Assembly (NCBI GenBank): GCA_903845065.1
Contig: CAIMWH010000020.1
Location: forward strand, 1-41,239
DNA length: 41,239 nt
Source of the DNA: an uncultured Rhodospirillales bacterium
Lineage (GTDB): Bacteria > Pseudomonadota > Alphaproteobacteria > Acetobacterales > Acetobacteraceae
Direction of reading: 5' to 3'
The translations under genes were made by a program, and so were the position numbers. Below are positions 7,323 to 36,929 of the stretch, one piece after another. Every line of letters starts with the position of its first letter. The stretch's first letter is position 1. The notes under the pieces were generated by a model. The model searched no databases, was not told the DNA's origin, and was given only the letters and a program-made list of their open reading frames with translations.

Positions 7323-7343
7323 CATCCCCTCCTTGCTTATCGT

Positions 7344-7384
7344 GGAAAAAGTTTTTGCTTCTTTTTTCAAAAAGAAGCGCTTCC
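7344..7384 (-). repeat. Family A hairpin repeat, copy A1 (short form), probable terminator
   Basis: A 10-bp stem GCTTCTTTTT/AAAAAGAAGC (7357-7366 with 7369-7378), 2-nt loop, flanked by GGAA/TTCC. It starts 3 nt after the stop codon of the PcaB-like lyase gene on the minus strand. The stem is A/T-rich with T-runs on both strands, so it can work as an intrinsic terminator. It is the single-hairpin, shortened member of a family with copies at 14565, 19658 and 36851. Confidence 0.8.
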
Positions 7385-7386
7385 TT

Positions 7387-8724
7387 CTACTGCGCCAAAA
7401 CCCGGTCAATAAACTGCTGCGTAGCCCCCAGATAAGCCGCCGGGTCCGTCATGGCGGCGATGGCCGCCCGATCCAACCGCGATGTCACCTCGGGCTCCTG
7501 CATCAACGCGTCTTCGAGGGTCCCGCCCGCGGTAAGGGCGCGATCGCAGGCATGCTTGACCACGTGGTGCGCGGTCTCACGCCCGAGATGCGGGGCGAGG
7601 CCCATCATGACGGCTTCGGCGACGATGAGGCCGCCGGTGAGATCGAGGTTGCGGCGCATGCGGGCGGGGTCGACCACCATGCCCTCGGCGATGGTGCGGG
7701 CGTGGGCGAGGGCGCCGTGGGTGAGGACGAAGGCTTGCGGGAGGGCGAGGTATTCGGCCTGCCAGGGGCCGGTGGCGCGTTCGTGGTCCTGCGCCATGGC
7801 GCCTTGCATGAGGGGCACGAGGGCGTGGACGGCGCGGGCGCTGGCGAGGATGTATTCGGAGGCGATGGGGTTGCGTTTCTGCGGCATGGTGGAGGATTGG
7901 CCGCGGCCGGGGACATAGGGTTCGGAGACTTCGGCGACTTCGTTCTGGCAGAGCAGGATGATGTCGGTGGCGAGTTTGGACAGGCTGCCGCAGACGAGGC
8001 CGAGGAAGGAGACGGCTTCGGCGAGGCCATCGCGGGCGACATGCCAGGGGGCGGCGGGGGCGGCGAGGCCGAGTTCGTCGGCCAGGCCCTGCATGACGGC
8101 GAGGCCCTGGGTGCCGAGGGAGGCCAGGGTGCCGGCGGCGCCGCCGAACTGGACGAGTTCGACGCGGGGGCGGAGTTGGGCGAGGCGTTCGCGGTGGGCT
8201 TTGAGGGGCATCAGCCAGGTGGCGCATTTGAGGCCGAAGGTGACGGGAAGGGCGTGCTGGAGATGGGTGCGGCCGGCCATGACGGTGTGGCGGTGGGTGT
8301 CGGCCTGGCGGGAGAGGGCGGTGATGATGGCCTGGAGCTCGGCGTCGATCAGGGCGAGGCCGGCGCGGACTTGCAGGACGGTGGCGGTGTCCATGATGTC
8401 CTGGGTGGTGGCGCCCCAATGGGTCCAGGCGCCGTGGGGGCCCGCGGCGCGGGAGAGGCCTTTGACGACGCCGACGACGGGGTAGCCGACGTTGCGGACG
8501 GAGGCGGCGAGTTCGGCGGGGTCGAGGTTTTCCACCCGGGCGGCGGCGGTGATGGCGGGGGCGGCGTCGGGCGGGATGATGCCGAGGCGGGCCTGGACTC
8601 GGGCGAGGGCGGCCTCGACATCCAGCATGTGCTGGAACCAGGCGCGTTCGTCGAAAATGGCGCGGGCGGGGTCGGAGCCGTAGAGGGTGCCGAGGATGGG
8701 GGAGTCGGCGGGATTGATCGGCAT
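7387..8724 (-). CDS. PcaB-family lyase/cycloisomerase (fumarase-aspartase superfamily) in the SQ operon
   Basis: 445 residues from the ATG at 8724 (MPINPADSPILG); the frame extends upstream but that part is Arg/Pro/His-rich antisense noise. Superfamily landmarks: THWGATTQDIMDTA (101-114), GRTHLQHALP (151-160, His154/His157), and the signature GQSSTMPQKRNP (275-286) with its mobile catalytic Ser. Overall it most resembles 3-carboxy-cis,cis-muconate cycloisomerase. Enzymes of this superfamily abstract a proton beta to a leaving group and form or break C-O or C-N bonds. No other beta-ketoadipate gene is nearby. It follows the sulfoquinovosidase gene by 32 nt as the last operon gene, so its substrate is more likely linked to SQ breakdown than to protocatechuate. 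Family call firm; substrate unknown. Confidence 0.88.
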   Translation of the reverse strand: MPINPADSPILGTLYGSDPARAIFDERAWFQHMLDVEAALARVQARLGIIPPDAAPAITAAARVENLDPAELAASVRNVGYPVVGVVKGLSRAAGPHGAWTHWGATTQDIMDTATVLQVRAGLALIDAELQAIITALSRQADTHRHTVMAGRTHLQHALPVTFGLKCATWLMPLKAHRERLAQLRPRVELVQFGGAAGTLASLGTQGLAVMQGLADELGLAAPAAPWHVARDGLAEAVSFLGLVCGSLSKLATDIILLCQNEVAEVSEPYVPGRGQSSTMPQKRNPIASEYILASARAVHALVPLMQGAMAQDHERATGPWQAEYLALPQAFVLTHGALAHARTIAEGMVVDPARMRRNLDLTGGLIVAEAVMMGLAPHLGRETAHHVVKHACDRALTAGGTLEDALMQEPEVTSRLDRAAIAAMTDPAAYLGATQQFIDRVLAQ

Positions 8725-8756
8725 TCTGGGGGCTCGTGGGGTTGGGGGCGCGCGGG

Positions 8757-10754
8757 TCAGGCGATGGTTTTGAGGGATTCGAAGAGGGCGGTGAAGGGGG
8801 AACCGGCGCGGTGGAATACCGGGGGGTGGCCGATGGGGGCGGGAACGGTGATGCGCTGGCCGCCTTGGTGGCGGGTGCCGGTCCAGAGGTGGGTCCAGGT
8901 GGTGCCGGCGGGGAGGTAGACGGTCCATTCGGCGGCGTTGGCGGCGTGGACGGGGGCGACGAGGAGGTCTTGGCCGTAGAGGTAATGGTCCTGGATGTCG
9001 TAGGTGCCGGGGTCATCCTCGTGGTGGAGGAACAGGGGGCGTTGGGCGGGCAGGCCGGTGGCGGCGGCTTCGGCGCTGATGTGGCGGAGGTAGGGGGCCA
9101 GCGCCGTCCAGATGCGGGTGAAGCGGGCGAAGTGGGCGAGGACTTCGGGGTCCTGGTCGACCTGGAGGTTGTGGTCGGGCCGGTTGCCTTCGTGCGTGCG
9201 CATCAGAGGGGTGAAGGCGGCCATCTCGGTCCAGCGCATGATGAGTTCGGGGGTGCGGACGTTGCCGAAGAGGGACGTATAGCCGCCGATGTCGCTGTGG
9301 TGATAGGCGTTGCCGAGCAGGCCGGCGGAGAGGGCGCCGCAGATGACGGTTTGCATTCCGTCATGGCGGGAGAAATCGACGCACTGGTCCCCGGCCCACA
9401 GCATGGTGGAGTGGCGGCTTGAGCCGGTGAAGCCGGCGCGCATCCAGAACAGGATGGGCTCGGGGGCCGCGCGGGCGGCGGTGGCGTTGACCTCGGCCCA
9501 GATGGTGGGCCAGGCGTTGTGCAGGAGTTTGGCATCGCCGTTGGCCAGCACGGCGTCGATGGGGAGGTATTCGCCGAAATCAGCCATCCAGCCGGAGAGG
9601 CCGATTTCGATCATGTTCTGGCGCAAGATGCGGGTGACCCACCAGTCCCGGGCGGCGGGCAGGGTGAAATCGGGGATGCCGCAGGAGAATTCGCCGAAAT
9701 CGACGCGGTAGGTGGTGCCGGCGGTGTTCTTGGCGAGCAGGCCGAGGGCGTCGGCTTCGGCGAACAGGGGGCCGTCATCGCAGAGGTAGCAGGAGGTGTA
9801 GCCGAGGAAGCGGATGTTCTGGGTGCGGAGTTCGGCGATGCGGGCGGGGAGGTTGGGGTAGCGGGCGGGGTTGAACTGCCAGTCCCAGAACAGGCGGCGG
9901 CCGAAGCTGGTCTGGCGGATGCCGGCCCAGTCCTCGCACCAGAGGGCGGCGATGTGGGCGCCGGCTTCGCGGTATTTTTCGAGGCGGGTAAAGCTTTGTT
10001 CGCCGGCTTTGAGGCCGATGATGGCGCCGTTGTAGAGCCAGTCGGGTAGTCCGGGGGGGCGGCCGAAGCGGGTGGAGAGGGCGGAGACGAGGGCGGCGAA
10101 GCTGGGGGCGGTGGTGAATTCGAGGCGGGTGGGGGCGGCCCAGGTTTCGATTTCGTGGTGGGTTTCGGCGCGGAAGTCCAGCACGGTGTAGGCGGTGGTT
10201 TCGAGGTGGAACGCGGTTCGTCGCGAGGTGAGGAAGCTGGGCTGGGGGTAGTTGGTGGTCCAGTAGTCACCGCCGGCGCGGCCGGTGCGGTCGGCCTGGA
10301 AGGTGATTTCGCTGGTCTTGTCGCGGCCGACGCCGGGTTCGCTGGTCCAGATGGGGAAGCGGCGGGTGCGCAGGTTGAAGTAGGACATCTGCTCGCCGCC
10401 GCCCCAGACATGTTCATCGGGGGTGGTTTCGAGGCGGAACCAGAAGCGGTTCCAGGCGGGGGCGGCGTAGGTGAGGACAAGATGGAGGGTGGTGGCGGTT
10501 TCCTCGAGGGTGAAGCTCAGGGCGATGTCATCGGCGGCGTGGCGGCGGAGGTGGAAATGGGGGCCGTCGAGGGTGGTGTGGGGGAGGGGGGCGCGTTCGG
10601 GGATTGTGTCGGAGATGTCGAAGTTGCCGCGGTACATGTCCATGCGTTCGTGGCCGCGGCCGGCGAAGAAGGCGGGGGTGGTGGGGGTGTGGGTGAGGAG
10701 GGCTTTGCCCGCGAGGGTGAGGGTGAAGCCGGATGGGGTGGGGTGGAGGGTCAT
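8757..10754 (-). CDS. yihQ: Sulfoquinovosidase (GH31, YihQ/SmoI type)
   Basis: 665 residues, E. coli YihQ is 678. It hydrolyses sulfoquinovosides (SQ-glycerol, SQDG) to free SQ. Catalytic nucleophile D392 in GWMADFGEYLP and acid/base D456 in LWAGDQ. Sulfonate-pocket residues: K249 (GLKAGE), E274 (WCEDW), R287 and W290 (GRRLFW), Y492 (SDIGGY). This is the K-E-R-W-Y set described for the Agrobacterium enzyme rather than the Q-Q-R-W-Y set of E. coli. The long stretch from MADFGEY through THEGNRP to RPLFLHHEDD is almost colinear with YihQ. No signal peptide is visible, so it acts in the cytoplasm after import by the ABC transporter encoded upstream. Other GH31 alpha-glucosidases lack the R/W pair, so the specificity call is strong although based on recalled family residues. 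Confidence 0.93.
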   Translation of the reverse strand: MTLHPTPSGFTLTLAGKALLTHTPTTPAFFAGRGHERMDMYRGNFDISDTIPERAPLPHTTLDGPHFHLRRHAADDIALSFTLEETATTLHLVLTYAAPAWNRFWFRLETTPDEHVWGGGEQMSYFNLRTRRFPIWTSEPGVGRDKTSEITFQADRTGRAGGDYWTTNYPQPSFLTSRRTAFHLETTAYTVLDFRAETHHEIETWAAPTRLEFTTAPSFAALVSALSTRFGRPPGLPDWLYNGAIIGLKAGEQSFTRLEKYREAGAHIAALWCEDWAGIRQTSFGRRLFWDWQFNPARYPNLPARIAELRTQNIRFLGYTSCYLCDDGPLFAEADALGLLAKNTAGTTYRVDFGEFSCGIPDFTLPAARDWWVTRILRQNMIEIGLSGWMADFGEYLPIDAVLANGDAKLLHNAWPTIWAEVNATAARAAPEPILFWMRAGFTGSSRHSTMLWAGDQCVDFSRHDGMQTVICGALSAGLLGNAYHHSDIGGYTSLFGNVRTPELIMRWTEMAAFTPLMRTHEGNRPDHNLQVDQDPEVLAHFARFTRIWTALAPYLRHISAEAAATGLPAQRPLFLHHEDDPGTYDIQDHYLYGQDLLVAPVHAANAAEWTVYLPAGTTWTHLWTGTRHQGGQRITVPAPIGHPPVFHRAGSPFTALFESLKTIA

Positions 10755-10783
10755 TACGGCTTGGCGTGTTCGCGGGGCGGGCG

Positions 10784-11689
10784 TTAGTTCGGCTGGATGG
10801 TGTAGCGGATGGTGCCGCGGCGTTGTTCGTGGGGGGCGATGACGAAGACGCCGGGGGGGAGGGGGCCGTCCATGCGGTTGAGGCCGTCGGTGATGTTGGT
10901 GACGGGTTCGATGGCGAGGAAGTCGCGGCCGTCGGGGATGTAGACGATGAGGTTGGCGAAGATGGGGTCGGCGGTGATTTGCATGGTGTAGCCGCGATCG
11001 GGGTAGGCAATGCGGGCAAGGCCGGTCCAGCCGGTGAAGCAGTTGTCGATGGAGTCGGGGCCGATGGGGCGGGGGGTGCTGTGGTCGCGTTCGGGGGGGA
11101 CTGGGGTGTGGCCGATGGGGAGCATGTCGGCGCCGTTGCGTTGCAGGCCGGTGGCGGTGAATTGCAGGGTGGCGGCGGGGCTGCGGGGGAAGAACGGGTG
11201 CTGGCCGAAGGCTATGGGGGCGGGGCCGGTGTGGCGGTTCTCGATGAGGCAGGTGCAGACGAGCGAGTCTTCGGACAGGGTGTAGATCTGCTCGGCGTGG
11301 AAGGCGAAGGGCCAGAGTTCGCCGCCGGGATAGTCGAGGCTGAGGGTGACCTGGTCGCCGGCTTCGGTGGCGGTCCAGGGGAGTTGCCAGCCGGCGCCGT
11401 GGATGGCCCAGCCTTGCATGAGGTCGGGCAGGTCGTAGCTGGTGCCTTCGAAGGTGAAGCGGCGGCCGGCGACGCGGTTGGAGTAGGGGAACAGCGGGTA
11501 GCTGGCGAGGTCGCGCGGCGTGCTGGCTTGCAGGGCGTTGGGCTGGGGCGGGCGGAACATCGGCTCGTCCCGGCGGGTCCAGGCGACGACGGCGCCGCCG
11601 AAGCCGGGGGCGAGGACGAGCTTGGCGGTGCCGGCGACGACGGTGACGAGGTGGTGCCGTCCCGGCTGGTTCATCCCCAATGTGCTCAT
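10784..11689 (-). CDS. Aldose-1-epimerase (GalM-like), candidate sulfoquinovose mutarotase
   Basis: 301 residues. GalM-fold landmarks: NRVAGRRF (71-78), AIHGAG with H97, FGQHPFF with the catalytic acid H164, and LAIEPVTN with the catalytic base E261. It would interconvert alpha- and beta-anomers of the sugar released by the neighbouring sulfoquinovosidase, the role of the YihR/SQ mutarotase genes in known SQ clusters. The start ATG at 11689 overlaps the stop of the upstream permease gene (ATGA); a second Met five codons later is possible. A 29-nt gap separates it from the sulfoquinovosidase start. Enzyme family is certain; SQ as substrate is inferred from context. Confidence 0.85.
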   Translation of the reverse strand: MSTLGMNQPGRHHLVTVVAGTAKLVLAPGFGGAVVAWTRRDEPMFRPPQPNALQASTPRDLASYPLFPYSNRVAGRRFTFEGTSYDLPDLMQGWAIHGAGWQLPWTATEAGDQVTLSLDYPGGELWPFAFHAEQIYTLSEDSLVCTCLIENRHTGPAPIAFGQHPFFPRSPAATLQFTATGLQRNGADMLPIGHTPVPPERDHSTPRPIGPDSIDNCFTGWTGLARIAYPDRGYTMQITADPIFANLIVYIPDGRDFLAIEPVTNITDGLNRMDGPLPPGVFVIAPHEQRRGTIRYTIQPN

Positions 11690-12516
11690 CCTTTGACCGC
11701 TCCTTGCGCTAGTCCGCGCACCATGGAGCGTTGCACGACGGCGAACAAGGCGAGGACGGGCAGGATGGAGAGGATGCCGCCGGCGGAGAGGGCACCCCAG
11801 GGGAGTTGGAATTCGCCGACCATCAATTGCAGGCCGACCGGCCAGGTGCGGCTGCCCGAACTGGTGGTGAGCATGAGGGCGAAGAGGTACTCGTTCCAGG
11901 CGGCGATGCCGATGAACACGGCGCAGGCCCACAGGCCGCCGCGGACCAAGGGGAGAATTACCCGCCACATGGCGCCGAGGCGGGTGCAGCCGTCGATGCG
12001 GGCGGCTTCCTCGAGTTCGATGGGGATGGCGTCAAAGAAGCCTTTCATCATCCAGATGAAGATCGGCAGCAGGAAGGCAGTGTAGGCCAAAGCGAGGCCG
12101 ATGCGGGTATCGAGCAGGCCGGCCTGGCGCATGATGATGAAGAGGGGAATGATCATCAGCACGACGGGGAACATGCGCAGGATGAGGAAGAACAGCAGCA
12201 CATTCTTGCGGCCGCGGAATTGCAGGCGGGACAGGCTGTAGGCGCCCAGGGTGCCGGCGAAGACGCAGATCACCACGGTGAAGAAGGTGGCGACCGCGCT
12301 GTTCCACATCAGGTCCGGCAGGTTCGACTGGGTCCAGATCGCGATGTAGTTGGTCAGGGTGGCGGGGATGGGAAGCAGGCTGATGTGGCGGGTGATGATG
12401 TCGCGCTCGAACTTCAGCGAGATGTTGAGCGCCCACAATACGGGGAAGGCGGCGAAGAAGGTGAAGGCGGCGGCGATGGCGTAGATCGCGCTGCGTTCGA
12501 GGCGGGAGCGGCGCAT
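11686..12516 (-). CDS. ABC sugar transporter permease (MalG/UgpE type)
   Basis: 276 residues, six predicted membrane helices. The cytoplasmic EAA loop reads EEAARIDGCTRLGAMWRVILP (EAA at 170-172, Gly176), the docking site for the ATPase. It forms the inner-membrane channel with the other permease, encoded 1 nt upstream, and takes substrate from the binding protein at 14657-15898. In this operon the cargo is presumably SQ or SQ-glycerol. No ATPase gene lies in the operon, so a shared MsmK/UgpC-type ATPase from elsewhere must power it. Confidence 0.93.
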   Translation of the reverse strand: MRRSRLERSAIYAIAAAFTFFAAFPVLWALNISLKFERDIITRHISLLPIPATLTNYIAIWTQSNLPDLMWNSAVATFFTVVICVFAGTLGAYSLSRLQFRGRKNVLLFFLILRMFPVVLMIIPLFIIMRQAGLLDTRIGLALAYTAFLLPIFIWMMKGFFDAIPIELEEAARIDGCTRLGAMWRVILPLVRGGLWACAVFIGIAAWNEYLFALMLTTSSGSRTWPVGLQLMVGEFQLPWGALSAGGILSILPVLALFAVVQRSMVRGLAQGAVKG

Positions 12517-12517
12517 G

Positions 12518-13429
12518 TCAGTCCTCCCGCAGCGCGTTGGAGTAGCGGACGTAGAGCCAGGAGCAGGTCATCAGCAGGAGGAACATCACCACGCTGAGGG
12601 CGCCGGCGTAGCCGAAGTTGAATTCGCGGTAGGCCTTCTGGAAGGCGTAGAGCGACAGCACCTGGGTGGAACGGCCGGGGCCGCCGCCGGTGAGGATGAG
12701 GAGGAGTTCGGGCGAGTTCATCAGGCTGATGGCGCGCAGCACCACAGTGGCGACGATGATCATGCGCAGGCCGGGCAGTTGGATGTGGATGAAGCGGTGC
12801 CAGAAGCCGGCGCCGTCCACCGCGGCGGCTTCGTAGAGTTCGGACGGGATGCCTTTCAGGCCGGCCATCAACAGGAGGCCGAAGAAGGGGAAGCCGTGCC
12901 AGGTTTCGACCAGGATGGCGGCGGGGAGGGCCCAGTCGGGGTCGGCGAACCAGGCCTTGAAGCCTTCGATGACGCCAAGGCCCTGGAGGGCGGCGTTGAT
13001 GACGCCGAGGCGGCTGTCGAGCATGAGGGCCCAGATGTTGCCGGCCACCACCAGCGGCAGGAACCAGGGCAGCAGGATGATCACCGACATCACCCGCATG
13101 CCGGGCAACTCGTAGTCGAGTGCCACGGCGATCACCAGGCCGCAGGCGAGTTCGAGGGCGACGGTACCGAAGACCCAGACGGCGGTGTTTTGCAGGGAGA
13201 TCCAGAAGATCGGGTCATCCAGCAAGGCGAGGTAATGGCGCAGGCCGACATAGCCGATGCCGAGATCCATCCGGTTCAGGCGCATCTGACGGAAGGAGAG
13301 ATCGATGCCGGAGATCGTCGGGTAGATGATGACGGCGAAGACCAGCAGCAGGCTGGGCGCCAGCAGGAGCCAGGGCCAGGCCTTGGTGTCGGATATGCCG
13401 GCAATGCGGGTGGCGAGGCTGCGCGACAT
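12518..13429 (-). CDS. ABC sugar transporter permease (MalF/UgpA type)
   Basis: 303 residues with a cytoplasmic N-terminus and six helices. The EAA loop is ELYEAAAVDGAGFWHRFIHIQLP (EAA at 200-202, Gly206). Its ATG overlaps the stop of the upstream enolase-superfamily gene by 1 nt (TGATG), showing translational coupling. It partners the second permease to import the ligand of the binding protein encoded in the same operon. Confidence 0.93.
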   Translation of the reverse strand: MSRSLATRIAGISDTKAWPWLLLAPSLLLVFAVIIYPTISGIDLSFRQMRLNRMDLGIGYVGLRHYLALLDDPIFWISLQNTAVWVFGTVALELACGLVIAVALDYELPGMRVMSVIILLPWFLPLVVAGNIWALMLDSRLGVINAALQGLGVIEGFKAWFADPDWALPAAILVETWHGFPFFGLLLMAGLKGIPSELYEAAAVDGAGFWHRFIHIQLPGLRMIIVATVVLRAISLMNSPELLLILTGGGPGRSTQVLSLYAFQKAYREFNFGYAGALSVVMFLLLMTCSWLYVRYSNALRED

Positions 13430-14538
13430 CAGACGATCGCGAGGGCGGTCTTTTCGATGTACGCCCAGTCCGGCGCGAAGCCGAGGCCGGGGGTGTCGGG
13501 GATGGTGAATTTGGCGCCGTCGATCTTCAGGCCGTGCGAGCCGTGGCGGAGGTTGCCGATTTGCTGGGAGGAGATCACCAGTTCCTCGTAGAAATCATTG
13601 TTGGGGATGGCGGCGCAGAGTTGGGCCTGGGCCATGCCCATGCCATGGACCTGGGCCTTCATGCCGTGGCACTCGGCGAGGTGGGCGATCTTGATGGCGC
13701 CGGTCATGCCGCCTTTCATGGTGGGGTTGGTGCGCAGCATGTCGAGCGCGCCGGCCTGGACCCAGGAGGCGGCGTTCCAGTGGGCGCCGTCGGAGGTTTC
13801 GGCGGCGAGCAGCGGGATATCGAGGGAGTCGCAGAGCTTGCGGTAGGAGCCGAGTTCGAATTCGCGCATGGGTTCTTCGTACCAGTAGAACCCTTCCTCC
13901 TCGAGGCGGCGGCCGAACCAGAGCGAGGTGACGTAGTCCCAGCCGGCGGAGCCGTCGAACATCAGGACGGCGTCGGGGCCGGTCCATTGGCGCAGGTTGC
14001 GGCAGAGTTTGGCGTCCTCTTTCGCGTCACCCCAGGCATGAAGCTTGAAGGCGGTGAAGCCGACATCAATGCATTCTTTGATGTGGCGTTCGTATTCGCC
14101 CATGGTGTCCCAGGTGACGGTGGAGGCGTAGACCGGGACGACGGGGTTGTGGCCGCCGAGCATCTGGTAGAGGGGCATGTTGGCCTTCTTGGACTTGAGG
14201 TCCCAGATCGCCAGATCGACCAGGCCGAGGGCGTGGAGTTGCATTTCCTCCAGGCGATCGAGTTCCCAGATGCGGTGCCAGAGGAATTCGCTCATCAGCG
14301 GGTTCAGGCCGATGAGTTCTTTCAGGCGGCGTTCGATGAGGGAGCAGACGGCCTCGCCGCGGCCGGTTTTGACGGCGCCGATGATGCCTTCGTCGGTGTC
14401 GATGCGCAGGATGGCGGATTTGGGGGTCTTGCCTTTGGGGGTGCCGTCACCGGAGCCGGGCAGGCCGGCGCGCCAACGGAACGTATCACCGATCCAGGGG
14501 TCTTCGACGAGATAGCCTTTGATATCGGTGATACGCAT
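13429..14538 (-). CDS. Enolase-superfamily enzyme 1 (mandelate racemase subgroup), probable acid-sugar dehydratase
   Basis: 369 residues with a capping domain (1-125) and a barrel. Metal ligands are D195 (LMFDGS), E221 (YEEP) and E247 (AAETSD), at the same residue numbers as in mandelate racemase. The base motif on strand 2 is K165-x-H167 rather than K-x-K. The strand-7 His is present (H298, QVHGMG), but its usual Asp partner seems replaced by Asn (N271 in RTNPTMKGG). Such enzymes abstract the proton alpha to a carboxylate, commonly dehydrating sugar acids. The start has AGGAAA 7 nt upstream. It sits between the binding-protein and permease genes, behind repeat A2. Substrate unknown; a sulfonated sugar acid is a context-based guess. 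Confidence 0.87.
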   Translation of the reverse strand: MRITDIKGYLVEDPWIGDTFRWRAGLPGSGDGTPKGKTPKSAILRIDTDEGIIGAVKTGRGEAVCSLIERRLKELIGLNPLMSEFLWHRIWELDRLEEMQLHALGLVDLAIWDLKSKKANMPLYQMLGGHNPVVPVYASTVTWDTMGEYERHIKECIDVGFTAFKLHAWGDAKEDAKLCRNLRQWTGPDAVLMFDGSAGWDYVTSLWFGRRLEEEGFYWYEEPMREFELGSYRKLCDSLDIPLLAAETSDGAHWNAASWVQAGALDMLRTNPTMKGGMTGAIKIAHLAECHGMKAQVHGMGMAQAQLCAAIPNNDFYEELVISSQQIGNLRHGSHGLKIDGAKFTIPDTPGLGFAPDWAYIEKTALAIV

Positions 14539-14564
14539 CAGTGTTTCCTATTGGTCGGGAAGCC

Positions 14565-14650
14565 AAGCGGACAAAAAATTTTTGCTTCTTTTTTCAAAAA
14601 GAAGCGCTTTCTTTTTTGAAAAAAAGAAACAAAAAAACTTTTGTCCGCTT
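14565..14650 (-). repeat. Family A double-hairpin repeat, copy A2, intra-operon terminator or attenuator
   Basis: Outer perfect 12-bp arms AAGCGGACAAAA (14565-14576) and TTTTGTCCGCTT (14639-14650) enclose two tandem hairpins: GCTTCTTTTT/AAAAAGAAGC, and TTTCTTTTTT/AAAAAAGAAA with a GA loop. It lies 6 nt beyond the stop codon of the binding-protein gene on the minus strand. It probably ends most transcripts there and lets some read through to the permeases, as REP elements do behind malE. Confidence 0.85.
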
Positions 14651-14656
14651 TTTTCT

Positions 14657-15898
14657 TCAGTTCAGCGCGGCGTCGAGGCCTTTGAGCATCGCGTCGGTGG
14701 CTTTTTCGGGGGTGGACTGGCCGACCAGGATTTTCTGGAACTCGGGCAGCACGCTGTTTTGCGACCAGCCGGCCATGCCGACGAAGGCCGGCGGCAGGGT
14801 GCCGAAGCCGAGGGTTTCGGCAGCGGCCTGGTAGAGCGGGTTGCCGGTGATGCGGGCGTCCTTGGCGATGACGCTCGAGGCGGGGAAGTAGCCGGTCTCC
14901 TCGAGGAAGGCGATCGAGGGATCGGTTTCGCCCCAGAAGCTGATCCAGTCCCACGCGGCGTCGATGTTGTCGGCTTTCATGATGCCGTTGAAGAGGTAGG
15001 CGAGGCGCGCGACGCGGGCGGCGGGGCCGGCGGGTTTGGCGGCGGTGCCGAATTCGCCGGGCTTGAAGAAGCGCACCATTTCCGTGAGCGAGCCGGTGTG
15101 GTGCCAGGTCATCGCGGTCTGGCCGGTTTTGAAGCCTTCCATGATCTGGCGGAAGCCGTCATTGGTGACGGAGGGGGGGCAGACTTTGTGGACGGTGTGG
15201 AGTTCGGAATACCACTTCACCGCGGCCAGGACTTTGGCCTTGTCCATGGCGTTCTTGCCGTCGACGACGAATTTGGAACCGAAGGCTTCCATCAGGTCGA
15301 TGAGGTAGGCGGCGCCGCCGGGGCCGGCGCGCATGCCGAAGCCGTAGCGGTTCTTGGAGGGGTCGGTGAGTTTCTTGGCGATGGTGACGAAGTCTTCGAG
15401 GTTCTTCGGCGGGCCGGAGATGCCGGCCTGCTCGAACCAGTCCTTGCGGTAGTAGGTCCAGTCGACGAAGGTGAAGGCGGGGACGCCGTAGATCTTGCCG
15501 TTGGCGGTGCTGCCTTTCCAGCGGTCATCGGGGTAGTTGACCTTGTTGGGCCAGGCGTTGACGCGGCTGGTGAGATCGACGAGGCCGTTCATGGCCAGCA
15601 TGTCGGGCAGGCGTTCGGCGGCGACCATGGTGACATCAGGCCGGGTGTTGGCGACGACGGCGGCGGTGAATTTCGCCATGTATTCGGGGTTGGGGATGTT
15701 TTCCTGCTGGAGCGCGATGTCGGGGAACTTCTGCTTGAAGATTTCCATGACGCGCTTGAGGCCGGTGAATTCCTCCTGGCTGGTGAAATGGTGCCAGTAG
15801 ACGACTTTGCCGGAGTGGCCGGCGGCGTGGGCCAGGCGGGGGGTGGCGGCGAGGGCCGCGGTGGAGGCGAGCAGGCCGCGGCGGGTGAGGGCGTTCAT
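14657..15898 (-). CDS. ABC transporter sugar-binding protein (SmoF-like role), Tat-type signal
   Basis: 413 residues. N-terminal signal MNALTRRGLLASTAALAATPRL with a twin-arginine-like TRRGLL and a predicted cut after AHA (about residue 25). The mature part is a family-1 extracellular solute-binding protein (KVVYWHHF start, DVTMVAAERLPDMLAMNGLVDLT, YYRKDWFEQAGI). It captures the substrate in the periplasm for the two permeases encoded downstream. Next to a sulfoquinovosidase and epimerase its ligand is probably SQ-glycerol or SQ, as for Agrobacterium SmoF; I did not verify ligand residues. GGGAG precedes the ATG by about 9 nt. A terminator-like repeat follows the stop directly, which would favour high expression of this gene over the permeases. 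Confidence 0.9.
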   Translation of the reverse strand: MNALTRRGLLASTAALAATPRLAHAAGHSGKVVYWHHFTSQEEFTGLKRVMEIFKQKFPDIALQQENIPNPEYMAKFTAAVVANTRPDVTMVAAERLPDMLAMNGLVDLTSRVNAWPNKVNYPDDRWKGSTANGKIYGVPAFTFVDWTYYRKDWFEQAGISGPPKNLEDFVTIAKKLTDPSKNRYGFGMRAGPGGAAYLIDLMEAFGSKFVVDGKNAMDKAKVLAAVKWYSELHTVHKVCPPSVTNDGFRQIMEGFKTGQTAMTWHHTGSLTEMVRFFKPGEFGTAAKPAGPAARVARLAYLFNGIMKADNIDAAWDWISFWGETDPSIAFLEETGYFPASSVIAKDARITGNPLYQAAAETLGFGTLPPAFVGMAGWSQNSVLPEFQKILVGQSTPEKATDAMLKGLDAALN

Positions 15899-15927
15899 TA
15901 TGGGGCTCCCTGGTACTATTCTTGATT

Positions 15928-17067
15928 TCAGCTCAGTTGGATCGGCGCCGGCGGCGGGCCGGAGGGGCGGAGGCCCTCGGCGACGGTTTCGACGGCATGG
16001 TTGTAGCGCGCTTCGTCGGACAGGCCGAGGCCGTGGCCGGGGGTATCGGGGGCAATGGCGTAGCCGTTTTCGAAGCGGATGGGGGTTTTGGCGAGGTGGT
16101 TGTAGTTCTGGAAGGAGTATTCGATCCAGTCCGCCTCGGGCAAGGCGGCGGCGATGTGGACGCCGACTTCGAGGAAGGTGTTGCCCAGGGTGATGCGGAC
16201 GCCGTATTCGGCGGCGAGCCAGCAGGCGCGCATGACGTCGGACATTTTGCCGTGGACGTTCATGAAATCCACCGCACGGGCCTCGATGAGGCGGCGTTTG
16301 CCGGTGAGGTCGAGATATTCGCCGGTGTTGAGGTGGGTGAAGGGGACGGCTTCGGAGACCTGGCGCAGGCCCTCGAAATCATCGCGCAGGCAGGGGTCTT
16401 CGATCCAGAGGATGTCATGGCCGGCATCCTTGTAGACATGGAGGGCGCGGATGGCCTGCTTCGGGGTCCAGGCTTCGTTGGCATCGACCATGATGGTGGG
16501 GTTGGGGCCGACGGCTTCCTTGAGGAGTTTGAGGCGGTGGAGGTCCCAGGCGAGGTCGGGGTGGCCGATCTTGATTTTGAAGGCGGTGAAGCCGACTGCT
16601 TTGGCCTTGGCGAAGAATTCGACGTAGTGGGCGTCGGAGAGGTGGAAATCGAGGCCGCTGGCGTAGGCGGGGACGCGAGGGTTGGAGCCGCCGAGGAAGC
16701 GATAGAGGGGGAGGCCGGCCTGTTGGGCGGCGAGGTCCCACAGGGCCTGGTCGATGGCTTCGCCGAAGGCATGGGAGAGCGGGCGCTGGTTGCCGCCGCG
16801 GGGGCGGGAGATGCGGTGGATGAGGCCCGCGGGGTGTTGGCCGCGCAGACCGGGGAAGGCTTCGAGGCGGAAGCAGCGTTCGAGTTCGGCGCGGTCGGGC
16901 AGGGGATGGAAGAGGTTGAGGAGCCAGCCGGTGCCAATTCGACCGGATTCGTCGTGCAGTTCGAGGACTGCGACGTTGCAGACATCGAAGCCGACCTGGC
17001 TGTCGCCGATCACGCGGTCTCGCCGGAAGGCGAAGCGGGTGATGGTGAAGTCCTTGATGGTGCTCAT
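15928..17067 (-). CDS. Enolase-superfamily enzyme 2 (MLE/MR type), first gene of the SQ operon
   Basis: 379 residues. Metal ligands D195 (MVDAN), E223 (WIEDP) and E250 (NTGEY). The strand-2 base motif K164-x-K166 (FKIKIG) is intact. On strand 7 the usual His is replaced by Asn (N296 in TLGNTFLE), and the strand-6 region reads DFMNVHGKMSD with H272 near the usual Asp site. So it keeps one half of the acid/base machinery and has an unusual other half, which leaves dehydratase, epimerase or cycloisomerase activity open. It is only distantly similar to enzyme 1 of the same operon. It has its own promoter-like region upstream and is 29 nt from the binding-protein gene. Confidence 0.87.
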   Translation of the reverse strand: MSTIKDFTITRFAFRRDRVIGDSQVGFDVCNVAVLELHDESGRIGTGWLLNLFHPLPDRAELERCFRLEAFPGLRGQHPAGLIHRISRPRGGNQRPLSHAFGEAIDQALWDLAAQQAGLPLYRFLGGSNPRVPAYASGLDFHLSDAHYVEFFAKAKAVGFTAFKIKIGHPDLAWDLHRLKLLKEAVGPNPTIMVDANEAWTPKQAIRALHVYKDAGHDILWIEDPCLRDDFEGLRQVSEAVPFTHLNTGEYLDLTGKRRLIEARAVDFMNVHGKMSDVMRACWLAAEYGVRITLGNTFLEVGVHIAAALPEADWIEYSFQNYNHLAKTPIRFENGYAIAPDTPGHGLGLSDEARYNHAVETVAEGLRPSGPPPAPIQLS

Positions 17068-17088
17068 TGGCGCCGTTTCTCCCCTATC

Positions 17089-17123
17089 CAGCTATTATAA
17101 CAGCTTGGCGGGGGGGACGTCAC
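17089..17123 (-). promoter_or_regulatory. Candidate promoter and overlapping operator of the SQ operon
   Basis: On the minus strand a perfect TATAAT occupies 17099-17094. GTGACG (17123-17118), matching TTGACA at four of six positions, lies 18 nt upstream. The -10 sits inside a near-perfect palindrome AGCTATTATAACAGCT (17090-17105) flanked by CC/GG, a shape typical of LacI- or GntR-type operators. Transcription would start near 17087, about 20 nt before the ATG at 17067. A second imperfect inverted repeat, GGTAT-G-ATATC, lies at about 17156-17166. No regulator gene is in the operon. Confidence 0.55.
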
Positions 17124-17199
17124 CTGGGGCGATCAGGGGGTGGGAGGCGATTTATTGGTATGATATCGGAACAAAGTGGATATGGTTCGGCGGCGCGGG

Positions 17200-17784
17200 T
17201 CAGGCGGGTTTGAAGGCTTGGCGGGGGAACCAGGGCCGGCGGCGGGGGCATGGCGGGGTGGACGGGGGGATCGGCGGGAAAATGGGCGCGGCTTTGGTGG
17301 GCTGGGGGGTGGGTTTCGCGTTTTTGGGGACCGGGGTGAGTGCGGGGTGATCGAGGGCGAGGAGGCGGCAGATGGGGCGCAGGAGGGCGGCCATGGCGGG
17401 GGCGGCGGCGAGGAGGGCGGCGGTTTCGGGGTGGGCGAGGAGAACCTCGAGTTGGGCGCGGTAGACGCCGGCTTCGTGCTTGAGGGTGGTGAGCAGGAGG
17501 CCGCGGGTTTGCGGCAGGAGGCTGGGCGGGCTGGTGCGATGGGGGCGCGGGGCGCTGGGGCGCGGCAGGCGGCCGGCGGCGAGGCAGGCCATGAGGCGCT
17601 CGACGTGGCGGGCTTTGCGGGTGAAGGAGCGCCAGAGGGGGAGGATGAGGGGGATAAGGCGCGGGGTGCGGATGAAGCGCGCGGCGATGAGGGTGGCGAG
17701 GGCGCGCAGGATGGCGCCGAGCCGCAGGGCGAAGGTGGGCGCGTGGGCGCGGAGGTTGGGGGAGAGGGGGGCGCTGGGCGGCAT
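17200..17784 (-). CDS. Hypothetical protein, helical, Pro-rich C-terminus
   Basis: 194 residues starting MPPSAPLSPNLRAH with AGGA about 9 nt upstream. The middle is helical, Ala/Leu/Arg-rich (IAARFIRTPRLIPLILPLWRSF, then HPETAALLAAAPAMAALLRP). The last 50 residues are Pro/Lys-rich and low in complexity. I recognise no domain. Codon use matches the GC-rich neighbours, unlike the lower-GC ATPase/DUF4276 pair upstream, so it is probably native. It is on the minus strand between that pair and the SQ operon. Confidence 0.55.
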   Translation of the reverse strand: MPPSAPLSPNLRAHAPTFALRLGAILRALATLIAARFIRTPRLIPLILPLWRSFTRKARHVERLMACLAAGRLPRPSAPRPHRTSPPSLLPQTRGLLLTTLKHEAGVYRAQLEVLLAHPETAALLAAAPAMAALLRPICRLLALDHPALTPVPKNAKPTPQPTKAAPIFPPIPPSTPPCPRRRPWFPRQAFKPA

Positions 17785-17863
17785 GGATTTTAATCCTAGC
17801 CGGTTGGTTGGGCGGTTCAAGGGGATTCTTTGGGGAAGTGGATTGTGCCACACCTACCAATGC

Positions 17864-18466
17864 TCAGAGTGGCTGGCCGCCAGACAGGTTCAGGATCGTG
17901 TTTAGGAAAGCTTTCAGTTCGGGGCACTGTGCTGCAGCGATACTCAGGTCTTGGTCTCTCAGGATAGCTGCGCCATCGCGGGTCTTTACATAGGCTCGCC
18001 TGCTACTTCCGCTTGAGAACACCTCGCCCAGCAACCTGCTTGGCGGATTTCCATGGTTTACCTGCTCAGGGGGGCGGGACGGCGCTGAACGGCTACTTCC
18101 AGCCTTCCGCTGAATGATCGACCAGTAAGGCAAGAGCCAAGCCTCGAAATCATGTTGTGCGGCATGGGGGTGGAAGCAGTCATTCGGTCCGACCCAAGTC
18201 TGCATCTGCCGTTTGGCATGTGCGGCATCGTTGAAGTCACTGGTTCCGGTATAGACATCGGTAAGGGCAATCACCGCGTCGTTTCTCTCTAGCCATCGTT
18301 CAACGATACGTTTGAGTTGCTCGCCTTTCGGAATTCGTCCGTCCTGCGGCGAAAATGTTAGACGCGGCATTCTGCCGGCTAGCCTTGGCGCTAGGAACGC
18401 CAGAAGTGTGGACTTGAAGGCCGCTTCCGTTGCGCCTTCCACAAGGACTACGATCCGAATGCTCAC
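17864..18466 (-). CDS. DUF4276 family protein (TOPRIM-like), partner of the AAA ATPase
   Basis: 200 residues starting at a GTG that overlaps the ATPase stop by 4 nt (GTGA). The N-terminus VLVEGATEAAF holds the acidic residue typical of TOPRIM-like folds. ALTDVYTGTSDF (about 71-82) and HDFEAWLLPY give the expected further Asp and Glu. DUF4276 proteins commonly pair with ABC/AAA ATPases in candidate phage-defence modules, where they are thought to act as nucleases. Codon use and base composition are clearly less GC-rich than the surroundings, a sign of transfer. The family is recognised from motifs; the defence role is inferred. Confidence 0.75.
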   Translation of the reverse strand: MSIRIVVLVEGATEAAFKSTLLAFLAPRLAGRMPRLTFSPQDGRIPKGEQLKRIVERWLERNDAVIALTDVYTGTSDFNDAAHAKRQMQTWVGPNDCFHPHAAQHDFEAWLLPYWSIIQRKAGSSRSAPSRPPEQVNHGNPPSRLLGEVFSSGSSRRAYVKTRDGAAILRDQDLSIAAAQCPELKAFLNTILNLSGGQPL

Positions 18467-19617
18467 GCCCGTCCTCCCAACCGCCCCATGCTCCAGAGTT
18501 GATCGAGCGTGTAGTCGTCCATCCAGGAGTCCAGTTCCATGGTGTCGGCTCGTTGCACCGACATGGCGCCTTGGTCGTCACGATCACAGACGACCAACTC
18601 GTCCGGTCGCAAGAAGCGAACAAACCGGTCCGAATGGGTCGCGACCACCAATTGCGTTCGCGTCGAGGCCTCGCGCATCAGTTCGGCAAGAATGCGCAGC
18701 ATTTCAGGATGAAGGCTGACCTCAGGTTCATCGATCAGTGTCACCTTGGGAAGCCCGGGGCTTTTTAGGAGGGTTGTTAGCCAGAGAAAGCGCAATGTCC
18801 CCTCGGACAACTCATTGGCAAATATCGGTCGCGTCATATCCCTGTCGCGCCATCCCAAGGTCACTTTACCCGCCGCTGGGGTCGGAAATTCTAGGCGCAC
18901 AAACGATGGAAATGCCGCGTGCAACGCATCTTCGACGGCCTCGAATCTATCTCGATCCGTTTCGCGCATCGTATAGAGGCTCGATAGCAAATCCTCACCG
19001 TCACTTCCTGGAGTTTGGGCGGGAGAAAGTGTCTGTGGTAGTCTGACAGGTGCGCGGTCGGAGACATCAAGGCCATGGTATATTTCTGATATATTCGCGA
19101 GCAGGCTTCGGAAACTTTCAGCTTCGCGATACATTTTGGGAGCCTGCGAGAGGGAGGTTTCCAACTCCTTGTGTTCCCAAGTCGGTTCTACGAGTTTACC
19201 TCCCTCTTGGTACCGAATCCGTGTTGTGTTCGAGTCGATGTGGAGGAACGGCACCGGCAAGGTGGGATTTCTTCGCTGGCTAAGACGTTCCTGGGCAATT
19301 TGATAGCCGTAGCCACGACGGATCATTGTTACCTGATAATCTAACGGCGCCCCGCGATCGTGAGGCAGAAGCAGACCAATAGAAAGTTGATTGGTTGCGC
19401 CATCGGCAGTTAAAATGGACTCCATCCCACCCATGCCGGTGATAGTGCTTTCAAGTTGGGCATTGGCGGACGCAGCCAACGTGTCAAATATATTGAGAAC
19501 GGAGCTTTTGCCGACACCGTTCGCGCCGATCAGCACATTGAGCGGGCGCAGTTCGATTTCGACACTCTTCAGTCGCCTGAAACCAGCAACGGAAAGTGTC
19601 GAGAAGCCGACAGTCAT
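18463..19617 (-). CDS. AAA/ABC-type ATPase (RecF/OLD-like), candidate defence component
   Basis: 384 residues. Walker A GANGVGKSS (31-39), ABC signature-like NELSEGTLRF, Walker B KVTLIDEPEVSLHP, and switch His in VVATHSD, the layout of AAA_15/AAA_21 ATPases. Unlike OLD nucleases it has no C-terminal TOPRIM domain; the overlapping DUF4276 gene probably supplies it, as AriB does for AriA in PARIS or AbiLii for AbiLi. Base composition is visibly lower in GC than neighbouring genes. It is transcribed on the minus strand, with repeat A3 between its start and the penicillin-acylase gene. Confidence 0.85.
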   Translation of the reverse strand: MTVGFSTLSVAGFRRLKSVEIELRPLNVLIGANGVGKSSVLNIFDTLAASANAQLESTITGMGGMESILTADGATNQLSIGLLLPHDRGAPLDYQVTMIRRGYGYQIAQERLSQRRNPTLPVPFLHIDSNTTRIRYQEGGKLVEPTWEHKELETSLSQAPKMYREAESFRSLLANISEIYHGLDVSDRAPVRLPQTLSPAQTPGSDGEDLLSSLYTMRETDRDRFEAVEDALHAAFPSFVRLEFPTPAAGKVTLGWRDRDMTRPIFANELSEGTLRFLWLTTLLKSPGLPKVTLIDEPEVSLHPEMLRILAELMREASTRTQLVVATHSDRFVRFLRPDELVVCDRDDQGAMSVQRADTMELDSWMDDYTLDQLWSMGRLGGRA

Positions 19618-22069: not shown

Positions 22070-22151
22070 CGCGGGGGGAGTCTCCGATTGCTGGCGCAGG
22101 GTTCCATGGGGCGGGGCGGGGGGCAAGCGGGGGCGTCGACGAAGGTAGATT

Positions 22152-36843: not shown

Positions 36844-36850
36844 GGCTAAA

Positions 36851-36929
36851 CGGATAAAAAGTTTTTGCTTCTTTTTTCAAAAAGAAGCGCTTTCTTTTTT
36901 TCAAAAAAGAAACAAAAAACTTCTATCCG
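36851..36929. repeat. Family A double-hairpin repeat, copy A4, between convergent genes
   Basis: Outer arms CGGATA (36851-36856) and TATCCG (36924-36929) enclose hairpin 1 GCTTCTTTTT/AAAAAGAAGC (36867-36876 with 36879-36888) and hairpin 2 TTTCTTTTTT/AAAAAAGAAA. It follows the gapR stop by 7 nt and its right arm contains the stop codon of the converging dehydrogenase. Copy A2 has CGGACA/TGTCCG at the outer arm, so the two arms covary. Confidence 0.88.

Follow-up and report, generated by a model that had tools for sequence, protein, structure and literature searches.

The six pathways for the plant sulfosugar sulfoquinovose (SQ) named in a review do not, as far as its abstract and section 3.2 show, include a dehydratase of the enolase superfamily (PMC12890257). 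Such an enzyme is described for a related sulfosugar: in the sulfofucolytic Entner-Doudoroff (ED) pathway of Paracoccus wurundjeri (SfcH/D/F/E), the PF13378/PF02746 enolase-superfamily protein SfcF is the sulfoaldonate dehydratase. Sulfofucose (SFuc) clusters contain an ABC importer and, in some cases, an aldose epimerase; as SFuc glycosides did not support growth of the Paracoccus strain, the authors infer that it has no sulfofucosidase (PMC12421959). Among alphaproteobacteria, the lake organism Elstera was labeled by 13C-SQ, and its relatives are described as having a glycoside hydrolase family 31 (GH31) sulfoquinovosidase (SQase) and a partial sulfo-ED gene set (PMC13372026). Here we analyze an eight-gene operon that combines a GH31 SQase with two enolase-superfamily enzymes; it lies in a window of 41,239 nucleotides that constitutes contig C20 of the draft genome G000 (5.9 Mb in 380 contigs, 96.4% complete, 4.4% contaminated) from an uncultured Rhodospirillales bacterium.

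Our preferred reading, put forward tentatively as close to an even call, is that the first seven genes form an uptake and front-end operon for SQ glycosides, feeding an ED-like route with an enolase-superfamily dehydratase, and that the eighth, encoding the cycloisomerase PcaB, is an unrelated neighbor.

Organization of the operon and its sulfoquinovosidase

The operon runs on the minus strand from 17067 to 7387, the successive intergenic gaps being 29, 118, -1, 1, -4, 29 and 32 bp. A first-pass annotation had described eight co-directional genes for an SQ-type glycosidase, an epimerase, a binding-protein importer, two enolase-superfamily enzymes and a PcaB-family lyase; the arrangement and the gene families are borne out by Pfam and NCBIfam scans of the window proteins. 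Its features are as follows.

15928..17067, minus strand: E2, enolase-superfamily protein of the Mll7089/2oz8 group, probable sugar-acid dehydratase, 379 aa (MR_MLE_C, 141 bits; PDB 2oz8, 460 bits)
14657..15898, minus strand: sugar ABC solute-binding protein (SBP), 413 aa (SBP_bac_1, 98 bits; RR-type signal sequence by eye)
14562..14636, no strand: A/T-rich dispersed repeat in the SBP-E1 gap (repeat family D2)
13429..14538, minus strand: E1, enolase-superfamily protein, candidate 6-deoxy-6-sulfogluconate dehydratase, 369 aa (MR_MLE_N and MR_MLE_C)
12518..13429, minus strand: permF, MalF-like ABC permease, 303 aa (BPD_transp_1)
11686..12516, minus strand: permG, MalG-like ABC permease, 276 aa (BPD_transp_1)
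10784..11689, minus strand: aldose 1-epimerase, probable SQ mutarotase, 301 aa (Aldose_epim; 4-bp overlap with the permease gene)
8757..10754, minus strand: predicted GH31 SQase, 665 aa (NF007746, 5ohy match, conserved motifs)
7387..8724, minus strand: PcaB, 3-carboxy-cis,cis-muconate cycloisomerase, a passenger, 445 aa (Lyase_1/ADSL_C; orthology; pca neighborhoods)

With the YihQ model NF007746 (cut-off 553), the GH31 protein reaches 883 bits, and its best matches among solved structures are entries titled 'Alpha-glucosidase yihQ' (5ohy, 948 bits), which we take to be the Agrobacterium SQase. The motifs WMADFGEY, AGDQ and R-L-F-W are kept in the alignment with 5ohy, the first two presumably carrying the catalytic Asp residues and the last the sulfonate clamp. 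When 18 SQases are placed in a tree, the window enzyme clusters with those of loci L014 and L015 and genome G154 (100/100), inside a wider, weakly supported set (81/90) that includes SQases of related genomes linked to SQ dehydrogenase (SQDH). (Other G numbers likewise denote genomes, L numbers fetched loci and C numbers G000 contigs; L010 belongs to G228, L021 to G304, L040 to G320, L178 to G120, L152 to G178 and L094 to a plasmid of Rhizobium sp. WSM4643.) Judged from its sequence, the assignment of the GH31 protein as an SQase is convincing, and the substrate of the locus is very probably an SQ glycoside.

The adjacent epimerase, whose Aldose_epim match of 111 bits refers to a longer version of the open reading frame (ORF), is 45-48% identical to four epimerases encoded near SQDH genes, 36-40% identical to two more, and 38% identical to its counterpart in a sulfofucose-type cluster that was located for comparison in S. 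mexicanum, a species named in PMC12421959. In the epimerase, WAIHG (94-98), QHPFF (163-167) and IEP (260-262) likely contain the equivalents of the two His and the Glu that PMC5902678 names for HsSQM, making the protein a probable SQ mutarotase.

Five further genes, E2-SBP-E1-permF-permG, are a separate sugar-acid module. E1 matches both PF13378 and PF02746, E2 PF13378 only. The closest PDB entry to E1 is 1rvk (173 bits), and its residues K165-x-H167, D195, E221, E247 and H298 are invariant in five aligned sequences, that of the window included; in E2, K164-x-K166, D195, E223 and E250 are invariant across four. N296 of E2, an Asn also at the corresponding position of 2oz8, occupies what we take to be the place of the catalytic His of mandelate racemase. 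Both proteins look like sugar-acid dehydratases in the wider sense. The SBP gives only 30 bits with the SQ-glycerol-binding protein SmoF. The importer is partial, in that an SBP and two permeases are present, whereas no ATPase is encoded in the operon and no window ORF of at least 150 aa has a Walker A plus LSGG[QE] pattern.

In the mechanism that we propose, the SBP and two permeases, served by an ATPase encoded elsewhere, would import an SQ glycoside such as SQ-glycerol, which the SQase, from its conserved residues, very likely hydrolyzes; the epimerase would interconvert the SQ anomers, and a dehydrogenase encoded outside the operon, not found here, would oxidize SQ to 6-deoxy-6-sulfogluconate. 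E1 would then abstract the proton next to the carboxylate and remove water to give 2-keto-3,6-dideoxy-6-sulfogluconate (KDSG), as SfcF dehydrates its substrate in the sulfofucose pathway. E2 would be a second sugar-acid dehydratase, and the enzyme splitting KDSG would be encoded outside the operon. E1 and E2 are of a dehydratase type not yet shown for SQ, and the operon may pass SQ to them.

Association of the module with SQ genes

The order E2-SBP-E1-permF-permG-epimerase-SQase-PcaB is found again in two metagenome-assembled genomes, exactly in L015 and with one additional ORF between the epimerase and SQase genes in L014; L019 has the module-epimerase-SQase order without PcaB, and in G154 (same genus) the set is split over contigs.

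Further relatives place the module beside SQ genes in other arrangements. In L010, L020 and L089, the opposite strand carries genes for an SDR and an epimerase at ~0.8-2 kb from the module, an MFS gene intervening in L010 and L089; L021 has an MFS gene and a contig-cut SQase gene near the module. A Rhizobium operon, annotated as having every gene of the sulfo-ED set, encodes an SDR with which these three share 67-69% identity; the three retain the Ser, both Arg, the Tyr and the Lys of the SQDH active site, including its sulfonate-binding arginines, as given in PMC12133307. The SQDH ortholog beside the module in three relatives favors a sequence in which SQ is oxidized to a sulfonated aldonic acid and then undergoes enolase-type dehydration, as in the opening half of the scheme of the first-pass annotation.

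Within the order, a survey of 299 genomes from 64 genera found E1 in 6 genomes (3 genera) and SQase in 9 (7 genera). Both occur together in 4 genomes, and all 3 E1 genera are among the 7 SQase genera.

SQDH also adjoins SQase, mostly with an epimerase gene and often accompanied by a transporter of the MFS or ABC type, in G178, G179, G254, G298, G240 and G320. These six stretches, as read, contain no IlvD or HpcH genes, both of which are found in addition only in G120; the fetched stretch of G224 has SQase and MFS genes and no SQDH. The gene order in G320 is acylase-epimerase-SQDH-SQase, and acylase genes occur upstream of the operon in the window (2.7 kb off), L014 and L015, an arrangement which suggests that the E2-SBP-E1-permease module joined an older SQ locus and that SQDH was lost there.

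MFS-like transporter genes (~450-470 aa) were seen beside SQase or SQDH in L153, L176, L177, L179, L152, L010, L021 and L089, mostly on the opposite strand (Pfam checked for L153 only). A GDSL-family hydrolase gene stands next to the SQDH-linked epimerase gene in L020 (15295-16548, by Pfam) and L010 (~10967-12601, by eye); its product could be an esterase for a lipid or acylated SQ glycoside.

Distribution of the module and the case for another substrate

The alternative that survives best, and a possibility to be taken seriously, is that the substrate of the module is a different sugar acid, or its glycoside, without a sulfonate group, and that the mutarotase and SQase are merely co-located, with SQ handled by unlinked enzymes or only the glycerol used. 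It draws on the distribution of the module across bacteria. A five-sequence E1 profile, run on 84,980 species genomes, turned up 346 relatives; the analysis continued with the best 80 loci, many of which end at contig borders. Clustering of these with the window found orthologs of SBP in 43 loci, permG in 38, permF in 37 and E2 in 24, the hosts being Kaistia, Inquilinus, Devosia and other Alphaproteobacteria; a gene for a GntR/FCD regulator or an ATPase is often present. An SQase of at least 68% identity lies inside the fetched flank at 4 of the 80 loci (L014, L015, L019 and L021), the GH31 protein of L064 being only 30% identical.

When 50 E1-carrying genomes, a subset of those with the 80 loci, were searched whole, SQase (E <= 1e-100) was absent in 44 and present in those of L014, L015, L019, L021, L026 and L040; E1 is therefore not SQ-specific, and its use as an SQ marker across bacteria was rejected. 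E1 homologs of ~49-51% identity adjoin genes for aldo/keto reductase, amidohydrolase, SDR and FAA hydrolase, the Pfam check being confined to L090; this set is known from non-phosphorylative L-fucose pathways. In Rhizobium and Neorhizobium a 59%-identical SBP is encoded next to an E2 homolog with no SQase gene in the fetched stretch, the Neorhizobium E2 homolog being followed by an SDR and then an FAA hydrolase; a plasmid search with E1 returned six records, each below 60% identity. PcaB, moreover, was collected at the same locus.

Two further conserved genes accompany the module. One, of the PhyH (phytanoyl-CoA dioxygenase-like) family, lies in or beside it in L020 (6658-7476), L026 (9192-9998), L043 (9018-9842), L053 (14110-14943) and L083 (6469-7110), the assignment being by Pfam for L020 and by cluster for the others. 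The second (cluster c10) encodes a conserved protein of ~630 aa in L064 (15574-17472) and 11 more loci from Devosia and relatives, mostly following the E1-SBP-permease genes; the one protein tested had no Pfam match.

Besides the 44 genomes with E1 and no SQase, several other observations count against the SQ front-end reading. The hypergeometric values for E1-SQase co-occurrence in the order (p = 6e-6 by genome, 8e-4 by genus) ignore kinship. Genus g54 splits the two genes between genomes, G228 having E1 and SQDH with no SQase found, and G254 having epimerase-SQDH-SQase with no E1 at E <= 1e-60. In G154 the module lies on a different contig from SQase and PcaB. The SfcF candidate of S. mexicanum is 23% identical to E1, on which ground E1 was rejected as an SfcF ortholog, and 30% identical to E2 over 186 residues. 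An SQDH ortholog, finally, was not found in G000, G154, G247 or the genomes of L014, L015 and L019.

Against a non-sulfonated substrate stand the module-epimerase-SQase order shared by the window, L014, L015 and L019, the 4-bp overlap of permG with the epimerase gene, the proximity of the module to SQDH and mutarotase genes (L010, L020, L089) or SQase (L021), and the presence of SQase in all three E1 genera of the order.

Search for the remaining SQ pathway enzymes

The first-pass annotation noted that SQ core enzymes are missing. This stands for the operon, in that Pfam and NCBIfam scans of the eight proteins found no SQ isomerase, kinase, aldolase, IlvD-type dehydratase or flavin monooxygenase; it stands only in part for the genome, in which an IlvD homolog of 58% identity is encoded elsewhere.

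SQDH candidates were defined as SDRs with Ser-x4-Arg-x-Arg-x5-Tyr-x3-Lys, a pattern derived from PMC12133307. Several genomes of the order carry an SDR 59-70% identical to that of the Rhizobium operon; among 11 SDRs of at least 59% identity, 9 have both arginines and 2 (the L152 copy from G178 and the L180 copy from G240) the first only. The best SDR in G000 is 51% identical to that of L020 and 49% to that of Rhizobium, its motif SISWHLAMGGMPAYTTAK having neither arginine; an SDR on contig C155 was rejected as SQDH, the arginine pair being missing. The best SDRs of G154 and G247 reach 50%, none in G304 (L021) exceeds 54%, and the genomes of L014, L015 and L019 gave none at E <= 1e-68 (55 candidates scored in each).

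G000 has seven IlvD-type matches. The best is 58% identical and lies on contig C237, where the stretch read contains no SQ genes; the copy in the sulfo-ED cluster of G120 is 71% identical. For the HpcH-type KDSG aldolase there are six matches, of which four had their neighborhoods read; the best is 38% identical, has an internal stop codon and lies in a stretch read without SQ genes, versus 64% for the G120 aldolase on the same comparison. The query for the SmoC-type flavin monooxygenase, a flavin-dependent oxidoreductase encoded beside SQase on a Novosphingobium plasmid and taken as SmoC, gave no G000 match at E <= 1e-30, three of nine genomes giving matches of 31-34%. The YihS-type SQ isomerase (PF07221) had no match in G000 and was matched in two of nine genomes (G178, G179), in a weak search that also gave none in the E. 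coli control. The sulfogluconolactone (SGL) lactonase and sulfolactaldehyde (SLA) dehydrogenase or reductase are absent from the operon proteins by Pfam, the genome not having been searched for them. A complete known SQ pathway elsewhere in the genome, which the first-pass annotation had named as evidence against its proposal, was not found in G000 by the searches made, which did not cover every step.

These results bear on a second alternative, that the clade has lost SQDH and follows a new SQ route with different chemistry, bypassing sulfogluconate and KDSG and not involving the lyase. No SDR close to SQDH was found in five genomes that carry SQase (G000, G154 and those of L014, L015 and L019), and for G000 this adds to the missing arginines of its best SDR, the lack of a monooxygenase match and the 38% KDSG aldolase homolog. 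We nonetheless consider such a route unlikely. An unlinked or unrelated dehydrogenase would escape the search, and the genomes are drafts; enolase-superfamily enzymes, moreover, require an alpha-proton beside a carboxylate, and their chemistry therefore expects an oxidized substrate.

A more specific version of the ED-like reading can be constructed by analogy, in which the clade would degrade SQ with an enolase-superfamily enzyme in place of the IlvD-type dehydratase and an unrelated enzyme in place of SQDH. As SDR and FAA hydrolase genes adjoin E1 and E2 relatives, KDSG may there be oxidized and hydrolyzed to pyruvate and sulfolactate with no aldolase. Taken as a whole, we regard this version as improbable.

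The lyase is PcaB

The first-pass annotation made the lyase an SQ enzyme, which is not sustained. Its matches at E <= 1e-120, with at most five candidates scored per genome, occur in 117 of the 299 genomes of the order and 32 of the 64 genera (49-100% identity); 97 genomes, G000 included, have it at 64% identity or more, versus 9 with SQase. Of ten fetched ortholog neighborhoods, five contain pca genes: pcaH and pcaG in G184, G228 and G019, and pcaDC and pcaF in G245, while in G204 the ortholog lies between pcaDC-like and pcaF-like genes. No pca genes were assigned around it in G247, G254, G057, G066 and G176. In G000 itself, the contig with pcaDC-pcaH-pcaG (C109) is devoid of pcaB, and the only match in the genome at E <= 1e-120 is the window lyase. 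Together, its breadth without SQase, the pca neighborhoods and the pcaB-less pca cluster of G000 make the lyase a neighbor of the SQ genes; it is PcaB, a passenger from protocatechuate degradation and not a member of the pathway.

The lyase falls below the cut-offs of both NCBIfam PcaB models (about 503-504 bits versus 595 for NF006554; 348 versus 355.75 for the second), as do two pca-linked orthologs (477 and 496 of 595; 332 and 341 of 355.75); in this check of ten proteins the PcaH, PcaG, PcaDC and PcaF examples pass their cut-offs and the three lyases do not. PcaB comes immediately after SQase in the window, L014 and L015, and in G154 the two are separated by 1.2 kb containing an ORF, an arrangement that we read as shared ancestry of the locus. 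G247 (same genus) has the order penicillin acylase-epimerase-PcaB in a genome without an SQase match.

That the lyase eliminates sulfite from, or otherwise acts on, a sulfonated intermediate is very improbable on these grounds, in spite of its position after SQase and of a sulfonate enzyme, XcbD, in its superfamily (393 bits, cut-off 600), and it was rejected as a sulfonate enzyme.

Neighboring features

The 75-nt A/T-rich repeat has three copies in the window (7335-7409, 14562-14636 and 36845-36919; repeat search, family D2), the second within the operon in the SBP-E1 gap and the first at the 3' end of the PcaB gene; a hairpin is apparent by eye. Similar translated stretches, KKRTKK and FLLLFSKR, occur at gene edges in L008 and L015.

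Upstream in the window, the operon is separated from a penicillin acylase gene by genes at 17864-19617 for a DUF4276 protein and an adjoining AAA_21-type ATPase, possibly a defense-type pair. A penicillin-amidase family gene is coupled to the epimerase/SQase/PcaB locus in the window (19754-22126), L014 (2736-7343), L015 (2541-7342), L181 (3663-5909) and L237 (7496-9847), being doubled in tandem in L014 and L015. In L015 alone, a Gfo/Idh/MocA oxidoreductase gene (17049-18002) converges on PcaB beside the operon; its product is a possible sugar dehydrogenase and is not conserved.

Comparison with known systems

No report of the E2-SBP-E1-permease module was among the literature matches listed for sulfoquinovose. 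The suggestion of an undescribed SQ route is nevertheless weakened, both by the precedent of SfcF as an enolase-superfamily sulfosugar dehydratase (PMC12421959) and by the occurrence of E1 mostly without SQase; what is left, an enolase-type variant of the ED route, is plausible and unproven. The order holds SQase-bearing genomes whose later SQ steps could not be assigned from sequence. With the lyase identified as PcaB, a false lead disappears. PcaB itself resembles the known enzyme in sequence, as the only copy found in G000 and in the pca neighborhoods of its orthologs, and differs in its location, the gene in this clade being found not in the pca cluster but downstream of SQase or the epimerase.

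The canonical sulfo-ED system, as in the Rhizobium sp. WSM4643 plasmid by annotation and G120 by similarity, shares the GH31 SQase with the window operon. By contrast, the IlvD-type dehydratase, HpcH-type aldolase, SMP-30 lactonase, SDR and semialdehyde dehydrogenase of the Rhizobium operon are all absent from that of the window. A GH31 SQase with an incomplete sulfo-ED gene set is likewise described for relatives of Elstera in PMC13372026; there the relatives reportedly have no obvious lactonase, and the word enolase does not occur in the main text.

Closest in the type of dehydratase is the sulfofucolytic ED system, which, as described in PMC12421959, combines an ABC importer with a PF13378/PF02746 protein of the enolase superfamily and, in some clusters, has an epimerase. 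The window operon differs in having no dehydrogenase, lactonase or aldolase and in having a GH31 SQase. With identities of 23% and 30% (186 residues), E1 and E2 are not close members of the SfcF group, though by analogy they may work like an SfcF-type enzyme.

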